Shown here: piece by piece, positions 13,236 through 19,601 of the stretch
Layout: each line of letters starts with the position of its first letter
Numbering within the stretch: the first letter of the stretch is position 1
NCBI GenBank assembly: GCA_003246455.1
Contig: QKAF01000080.1
Span: forward strand, 1-33,584
Source of the DNA: Bacteroidota bacterium
GTDB lineage: Bacteria; Bacteroidota; Ignavibacteria; SZUA-365
Reading direction: 5' to 3'
DNA length: 33,584 bases
The notes under the pieces: model-generated
The model's database searches: none
What the model saw: the letters and a program-made list of their open reading frames with translations, nothing else
What the model was told of the DNA's origin: nothing
Position numbers and translations under genes: made by a program

Positions 13236-13288
13236 AAAAAAAAAGAGCCAACTAAAGCTGAGGAGGGAGGGGACTCGAGTTGGCTCTT
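13236..13288 (-). terminator. Strong intrinsic terminator, minus strand
   Basis: AAGAGCCAACT (13243-13253) and AGTTGGCTCTT (13278-13288) make a perfect 11-bp stem with a 24-nt loop. Read on the minus strand the stem is followed by a run of nine T (the A-run at 13236-13244), a textbook Rho-independent terminator. It ends transcripts from the yebC-ruvC-ruvA side, or from the small transcript suggested at 13236-13303. The loop on the RNA strand is unusually rich in C and U. Confidence 0.85.
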
Positions 13289-13303
13289 GGAAACAGTGAA
13301 TGC
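13236..13303 (-). ncRNA. Candidate small RNA with a CU-rich loop
   Basis: The promoter-like pair at 13310-13338 would start a minus-strand transcript near 13303, which would end in the T-run at 13236-13244: about 65-68 nt. It would consist of a short 5' tail and one 11-bp hairpin whose 24-nt loop includes CCCCTCCCTCCTC, complementary to Shine-Dalgarno-like purine tracts. This would be a C-rich-loop regulator. The simpler reading is that the hairpin is only the ruvA terminator. No family match is claimed. Confidence 0.35.
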
Positions 13304-13309
13304 GGAGTA

Positions 13310-13338
13310 AATATACATCCGCCGTTCTCTTAAAGCAA
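13310..13338 (-). promoter_or_regulatory. Promoter-like sequence upstream of the 13236 terminator
   Basis: On the minus strand TTGCTT (13338-13333) and TATATT (13315-13310) are exactly 17 bp apart. This lies after the ruvA stop and before the terminator, where no protein gene could use it. Confidence 0.4.
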
Positions 13339-13381: not shown

Positions 13382-13984
13382 TCAGGAATTCAGTTGTCGC
13401 AGTGCGGCTTTGGTCAGATCCGATACGCTTGCGCTGCCTCCATCGGGCTGCGCGGCGACAGCACCTGAAATCGCTTTTTCAGCGGCGGCGCGATTGTATC
13501 CGAGAGCCTGAAGAGCGAGGAGCGCCTCATCGCGGACGCTCAGGCGTCCGCCCGCCGCGGCCCGTTCCTTCTCGTCGAGTCCCCGGGCGAAGCTGTCGCG
13601 CAGTTCAACGACAATGCGTTCGGCGGTTTTCTTGCCGATACCGGGAATCCGCGTCAGCGCGCCGACGTCGCCGCTGCTGACACGGAGACGCAGATCGTCC
13701 GGCGCGATGCCGCTGAGGATGTTCAGCGCCATGCGTGCGCCGATGCCGGATATTCCCTGCAGCTGACGGAACAGCTGCCGTTCCTCCGCCCGGGCGAAAC
13801 CGAAAAGCTGCATGGCATCTTCGCGGACGTGCAGATGCGTCAGCAGGCGGACCCGCTCCCCTGTCGGAGGAAGTGCGTCGTGGGTATGGAGGGAAATGTG
13901 CACGCCGAACGCAACACCGCCGACGTCTATGACGGCGGTCATGGGCTCTTTCGCAGAGAGGACGCCTTCGAGATACTCTATCAT
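13382..13984 (-). CDS. ruvA: Holliday junction branch migration complex subunit RuvA
   Basis: Binds four-way DNA junctions and loads the RuvB motor during recombinational repair. 200 aa, the usual length. The N-terminal OB domain starts MIEYLEGVLSAKEP; the two helix-hairpin-helix motifs are ISGIGARMALNIL and IPGIGKKTAERIVVEL; the C-terminal RuvB-binding three-helix domain (DEALLALQALGYNRAAAEKAI) is complete. Its ATG overlaps the end of ruvC by four bases (ATGA), so the two junction-processing subunits are coupled. ruvB is not in the window. A strong terminator follows the stop by about 100 bp. Confidence 0.97.
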   Translation of the reverse strand: MIEYLEGVLSAKEPMTAVIDVGGVAFGVHISLHTHDALPPTGERVRLLTHLHVREDAMQLFGFARAEERQLFRQLQGISGIGARMALNILSGIAPDDLRLRVSSGDVGALTRIPGIGKKTAERIVVELRDSFARGLDEKERAAAGGRLSVRDEALLALQALGYNRAAAEKAISGAVAAQPDGGSASVSDLTKAALRQLNS

Positions 13985-17131: not shown

Positions 17132-17558
17132 AGACAGCGGCACCCGCGTCCATCTGTAAGCCGAATTCTGTCTATCCCGGGATACGGGACGAGGCAGCCA
17201 TCTATCTGGACCCCGCGTTGCCGCGGGATTCGAGCGACCTACCCGAATGCCGGTGCGCCGAGGCGCTCACTGCGCGGGCAGCGCAGCTCCGGGGACGGCA
17301 TTCCTACATGGTCTTGCTCCGGGTGGGGTTTGCCAGGCCAGCCTGTCGCCAGACTGCCGGTGCGCTCTTACCGCACCTTTTCAACCTTACCTTTCCCGCC
17401 TTGCCGAAGCGCGGCGGGACGGGCGGTGTGTTTTCTGTTGCACTTTCCGTCGCCTTTCGACGCCCGGACGTTATCCGGCACCCTGCCCTGCGGAGTTCGG
17501 ACTTTCCTCCCCTGCACGCGGCAGAGGCGGCTGCCCGATGAACGCGAGTCCGCTGTCT
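17132..17558 (-). ncRNA. rnpB: RNase P RNA (class A)
   Basis: Catalytic RNA that removes 5' leaders from pre-tRNA. On the minus strand the 5' part contains the universal GAGGAAAGTCC (17509-17499), and the 3' part contains AGACAGAATTCGGCTTA (17173-17157), which includes the conserved ACAGAA..GGCTTA. The two ends pair as helix P1: AGACAGCGG at the 5' end with CCGCTGTCT at the 3' end, which sets the limits to about 17558 and 17132. At about 427 nt it is slightly long for a class A RNA, so some peripheral helices are probably extended. Several open frames over this span (for example 17247-17693 plus) are not genes. Confidence 0.95.

Positions 17559-19525: not shown

Positions 19526-19601
<76 letters not shown>

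Follow-up and report, generated by a model that had tools for sequence, protein, structure and literature searches.

A putative small RNA of about 65 nt with a conserved unpaired 5' tail downstream of ruvA in an order of Ignavibacteria

Introduction

The window analysed here is a stretch of 33,584 nt from a Bacteroidota bacterium. On its minus strand, a hairpin with a T run lies directly after ruvA (13382-13984, minus strand; Pfam RuvA_N and RuvA_C). Does this locus only end the transcripts of the preceding gene, or is it a gene for a small RNA (sRNA), and with which partners could such an RNA pair? Trans-encoded base-pairing sRNAs have their own promoter, an intrinsic terminator, a conserved single-stranded seed and complementary sites at translation starts. 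To our knowledge, regulation by sRNAs without Hfq is poorly understood beyond a few models. The lineage, an order of uncultured bacteria, is represented here only by metagenome-assembled genomes. An initial annotation of the window had proposed a 65-nt sRNA with an anti-Shine-Dalgarno-like (anti-SD-like) loop at this locus. Here, the locus is compared among relatives and possible partners of the RNA are described.

Structure of the locus

The hexamers TTGCTT (-35, 13338-13333) and TATATT (-10, 13315-13310) are located after ruvA on the minus strand with a spacing of 17 nt, as initially annotated. The proposed sRNA gene extends on the same strand from 13303 to 13236, with its end inside the T run. 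The predicted transcript starts with the unpaired 5' tail GCATTCACTGTTTCC (13303-13289), which is the proposed seed. The tail is followed by a perfect stem of 11 bp, also recognized earlier, in which the 5' arm AAGAGCCAACT (13288-13278) is paired with the 3' arm AGTTGGCTCTT (13253-13243). Nine T had been counted after the hairpin. They are present (13244-13236), but two of them belong to the stem and seven (13242-13236) follow it. The 24-nt loop (13277-13254) contains the anti-SD-like sequence CCCCTCCCTCCTC (13272-13260). The loop has the length first described, but the fold closes four weak pairs within it, and 14 nt stay open. The RNA had been regarded as little more than this hairpin; the hairpin is confirmed, but the 5' tail, its most conserved part, had been missed. 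The folding energy of the sRNA is -18.9 kcal/mol (z -6.0), and none of 200 shuffled sequences was as stable.

A sigma-70 promoter scan did not list the TTGCTT-17-TATATT pair. A simple terminator scan did not list the hairpin, because the loop is too long for that scan. As neither element was listed, the sequence of the window alone would not settle the sRNA reading. In a relative, TTGATT-17-TATATT was read by eye before a tRNA-Val gene (L115, G003:C16). This suggests that TTGNTT-17-TATATT may be a housekeeping promoter form in the lineage.

Conservation and distribution

According to BLASTN, the sRNA stretch is present in 14 of 41 relatives, the window's own genome included. The locus is found downstream of ruvA in 14 of the 16 genomes of the order. 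All genomes of the order that are at least 90% complete carry it (11/11), and the two genomes without it are 74% and 70% complete. In each of the 14 homologous loci, the RNA start is preceded at a distance of 76-83 nt by the end of a ruvA-like ORF. A covariance model was built from 13 homologues, with G006 left out, and the locus in the window scored 92.9 bits. The search of 391 genomes of the class with this model detected the same 14 genomes, with one match apiece. None of the 375 class genomes outside the order was matched under strict filters, by which weak matches can be lost. A pattern scan of 84,980 species genomes gave 9 contigs, all of which are metagenome-assembled and labelled Ignavibacteria, Chlorobiota or Bacteroidetes. 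As far as searched, the putative sRNA family is restricted to one order.

Sequence identities were calculated as the mean over all pairs of the 14 homologous sequences. Both hexamers show 100% identity, and their spacing of 17 nt is the same in all 14 homologues, whereas the spacer sequence shows 63% and the six bases before the RNA start show 35%. The first 15 bases of the RNA show 98%, and the tail is identical at 15/15 positions in 13 of the 14 sequences. On the 5' side of the -35 hexamer, the stretch CGCTAAACTC (13348-13339, minus strand) shows 74%, and most homologues retain its AAAC(T/C)C portion. The hexamers are unremarkable on sequence alone, and it is their identity in 14/14 that lifts the promoter above chance. 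The hexamers and the tail are invariant while the six bases before the start are nearly random, a pattern that implies both a promoter and a fixed RNA start at 13303. The initial annotation had expected a 5' end near 13303, and conservation leads to the same start.

The pairs of the stem were counted in 13 sequences (11 distinct), and G006 was excluded since MAFFT moved its stem by one column. Among 121 cells, 97.5% are paired, and none of 500 shuffles reached this value. Five of the 11 stem pairs are altered on both sides among the homologues, so that changes in one arm are compensated in the other. The stem of G006, checked separately, is wholly different and has 13 bp. Despite these changes of the stem, CCTCCTC is kept in all 14 loops. 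Conservation of the loop and the promoter in related genomes had been named as a check on the annotation, and a conserved stem with a changing loop as the pattern that speaks against it. The opposite pattern is observed: the stem varies and CCTCCTC stays, and thus the test favours the loop. With the invariant promoter and the compensatory stem changes, the comparison supports the proposed sRNA. An independent promoter and terminator with conserved architecture are indicated by this conservation rather than by RNA mapping. The unpaired 5' tail is the best-conserved portion of the predicted RNA, and it is also the portion for which partners can be identified.

A tRNA trailer complementary to the tail

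The 41 genomes were searched for GGAARCAGTGAATGC, and the targets were found afterwards, by looking for the complement. Outside the sRNA locus, the matches are located almost only in the genera g1 and g3; a single match in G031 belongs to another family. One class of matches corresponds to the 3' trailer of a tRNA with the CAU anticodon. ARAGORN assigns this tRNA to Met. We take its sequence to resemble tRNA-Ile2, and it is probably tRNA-Ile2.

In all eight g1 and g3 genomes where tRNA(CAU) was found, the trailer is complementary to the tail over 20-22 nt. The pairing energies are -25.2 to -28.3 kcal/mol, and in each genome none of 300 shuffles was as low. The trailers of seven genomes contain CTCTTGGAAGCAGTGAATGC, and that of G003 contains it with one mismatch. 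The trailer bases past TGAATGC vary, so that the conserved segment ends at the position facing nucleotide 1 of the sRNA. The trailer in the window's own genome is complementary over 22 nt, including one G-U pair. Trailer complementarity to the seed is therefore found in 8 of the 13 genomes where tRNA(CAU) was detected, all of them in g1 and g3. The tail complement is absent from the tRNA(CAU) trailer in G004, G006, G007, G012 and G014, and G012 lacks the sRNA as well. At the threshold used, tRNA(CAU) was not found in G002, G013 and G015. Degenerate copies of the tRNA(CAU) 3' half with the trailer are present at L112 (G000:C111:48846-48913) and L111 (G005:C34:34409-34508). They were possibly left by tRNA duplication or by integration of a mobile element.

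Tail sites in a tandem gene family

The second class of tail-complement sites is located at the start of a protein family of about 140 aa, which is encoded in tandem copies. Several near-identical copies (PVFTGLEDHTI...GGFFGR...PCPPFC...NPLNS) were observed at L210 (G008), L211 (G007), L212 (G005) and L213 (G000). In the loci that were read, the neighbours are glycogen synthase-like and sensor-kinase-like genes, named by eye. The protein has no Pfam match, and PHROGs and PDB sequences gave nothing convincing; one NCBIfam model was matched far below its cut-off.

In G008, G010 and G011, ATGGAAACAGTGAATGC is located 3' of a GGAG site. The METVNA gene starts of these three genomes contain an exact 15-nt complement of the tail, and those of G001, G003, G005 and G009 contain it with one mismatch. 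Copy 1 of G002 shows no useful pairing with the tail (-7.0 kcal/mol, a value reached by 127 of 300 shuffles). In copy 1, the Shine-Dalgarno sequence (SD) is followed by the tail site, whereas in later copies the tail site precedes the SD. Two or three tail sites are present beside the SD in the later-copy leaders of G005, G008 and G010, where they are free of coding constraint. Copies 2 and 3 of G008 are near-identical and not independent, and certain leader sites may have descended from a duplicated copy-1 start.

Counting at most 2 mismatches of 13, the 14 cluster loci contain 18 sites on the coding strand versus none on the opposite strand, and 7 of the loci have no tail site on either strand. 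The first family copy is missing from the assembly of the window's own genome. Complementarity of the conserved, unpaired seed to mRNAs from other loci was thus found in g1 and g3 only. Tail conservation is just as high in G004, G006, G007, G013 and G014, yet no mRNA target was identified there.

Genome-wide sites and weaker candidates

In G008 (about 0.79 Mb), 12 sites with at most 2 mismatches were counted versus a permutation mean of 1.6, and 1 of 300 permutations was as high. Six of the 12 sites belong by position to the cluster or the trailer, about half of the excess. In 800 kb sampled from G007, no excess was detected (2 sites; permutation mean 1.5; at least as many in 110 of 300 permutations). 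A broad regulon is accordingly not supported. The called translation starts showed no excess; the target cluster itself was called wrongly by the crude gene caller, and thus these counts are not informative. A control with the reversed pattern was discarded: stop codons occur in the reversed motif and bias the comparison.

Two candidate sites were noted in the window's own genome. L179 is located in the leader of a gene for a secreted protein that carries a DRSGSM motif (-18.9 kcal/mol), and the orthologues in G008 and G010 have related sites. L182 overlaps the SD and the start codon of a gene whose 501-aa product has an N-terminus resembling a signal peptide (-20.1 kcal/mol). Both belong to a set of 14 other near-matches in this genome and could be due to chance. 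The isolated matches L029 (G031), L052 (G008) and L049 (G003) were treated as chance or unresolved, including the exact 15-nt match of L049 near the start of an unrelated ORF.

A second intergenic locus was observed at L166 (G011:C92:870-1670) and L143 (G008:C6:52660-53460), where GATTCACTGTTTCC, a near-identical tail, is followed by the terminator-like hairpin GGGCGTCCC. This locus, weakly conserved elsewhere, possibly encodes another RNA that shares the seed. Tail-complement sites were also observed in the interval from a stop codon to a terminator, two at L141 (G008:C5:72150-72950) and one at L155 (G009:C331:700-1500), the latter after a gene whose product resembles the C-terminus of a Clp ATPase. 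These sites are possible further sponges in 3' UTRs.

Proposed mechanism and alternatives

We consider, with a probability of about 0.7, that the locus encodes an Hfq-independent trans-acting sRNA, whose tail would repress translation with help from the anti-SD-like loop, and for which the tRNA trailer is a probable sponge. Transcription of the sRNA, about 65 nt long, would begin at a dedicated promoter directly downstream of ruvA and stop at a dedicated terminator, and the RNA would act without Hfq. Two surfaces would be available for pairing, the near-invariant unpaired 15-nt 5' tail and the C-rich anti-SD-like loop of the terminator hairpin. The tail would pair at or beside the ribosome-binding site of target mRNAs, and translation initiation would be blocked. 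The best candidate target is the tandem family of about 140 aa. Binding of the loop to ribosome-binding sites is plausible, and the loop could extend the pairing to an SD that sits just upstream of the tail site. According to the order of the elements, the tail and the loop could pair together at copy 1, but not at later copies. In g1 and g3, the 20-22-nt complement in the tRNA(CAU) trailer would probably act as a sponge or decoy. More tentatively, and with rather less confidence than in the sRNA itself, a complete Hfq-free circuit can be drawn, in which the bipartite sRNA controls the tandem family via arrays of leader sites and is tuned by the tRNA-Ile2 trailer, so that the regulation is coupled to production of that tRNA.

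Three other explanations were considered. In the first, the RNA is real and the loop is its working part: acting as a mimic of the 16S rRNA anti-SD, the loop titrates ribosome-binding sites generally or blocks them, and the tail is an element for stability or processing. The CCTCCTC motif in every loop fits this explanation, as does the result that no specific tail partner was found in the genomes outside g1 and g3. However, conservation is higher in the tail than across the whole loop, and in two genera the tail has long, specific complements at translation starts. We regard this explanation as unlikely. In the second, a protein recognizes GGAAACAGTGAATGC as DNA or RNA, and the locus is one such binding site rather than a gene for an antisense RNA. 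Copies between stop codons and terminators (L141 and L155) and the tail-like copy at the second intergenic locus (L143 and L166) would be expected from such an element. The orientation is nevertheless fixed: the sRNA carries the reverse complement, the mRNAs and trailers carry the forward sequence (18 to 0 among the cluster loci), and the trailer conservation ends where the sRNA would start. A DNA site needs neither feature, and this explanation is improbable. The last and least probable, that the locus is merely the terminator of the ruvC-ruvA operon with promoter-like hexamers arisen by chance, agrees with its position directly after ruvA on the same strand, its T tract and the absence of the hexamers from the simple promoter scan, but the conservation pattern speaks strongly against a plain terminator, since hexamers invariant at a fixed spacing amid varying sequence, a 98% identical tail and a retained loop motif are unneeded by it. 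The terminator of the putative sRNA may well also end ruvA transcripts.

Comparison with known systems

Hfq was not detected in any of the 16 genomes of the order, and the same search was positive in 5 of 14 control genomes. The locus therefore does not match an Hfq-dependent sRNA, for which Hfq is present in the genome. Rfam 15 at the gathering score gave no family for the sRNA; in the window, it gave only RNase P RNA and a tRNA. These are the class A RNase P RNA at 17141-17546 and the tRNA gene at 19526-19598, both on the minus strand. At a relaxed threshold, the matches to the sRNA were weak and conflicting, and the best was SpF19 (19.6 bits versus 60). A literature search for the 15-mer and for small RNAs in Ignavibacteria found no report. 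Judged from these comparisons, the predicted RNA represents a new family within a known kind of sRNA, and its features are combined in an unusual way. The promoter, terminator, seed and start-site complements of trans-encoded base-pairing sRNAs are all seen here. Unlike such sRNAs in general, it is very small (about 65 nt), Hfq is undetected, and it is confined to one order as far as searched. It offers an sRNA with an invariant promoter and seed and with specific, testable partners, including a tRNA trailer.

In RoxS/RsaE of Firmicutes, C-rich regions of the sRNA pair with SD sequences, as described for RoxS in PMC5419742. The sRNA proposed here likewise has an unpaired C-rich region able to pair with G-rich ribosome-binding sites. 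Compared with that description, it has one C-rich loop, placed on the terminator hairpin, its main specificity appears to reside in the non-C-rich 5' tail, and no sequence similarity was found in Rfam.

The tRNA trailer has a counterpart in 3'ETS-leuZ of Escherichia coli, a tRNA trailer acting as a sponge for RyhB (Lalaouna 2015, as described in PMC7154689). Both systems combine a trans-acting sRNA with a tRNA 3' trailer that pairs with its seed, as predicted in the present case, and that is interpreted as a sponge. The two differ in the tRNA, in their unrelated sequences and in phylum; in the present case, the near-perfect complement is 20-22 nt long, no Hfq was detected, and the sponge role is a proposed one. 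If the sponge is real, control of an sRNA by a tRNA trailer would occur far from E. coli and free of Hfq, which would suggest a repeated origin of such control.
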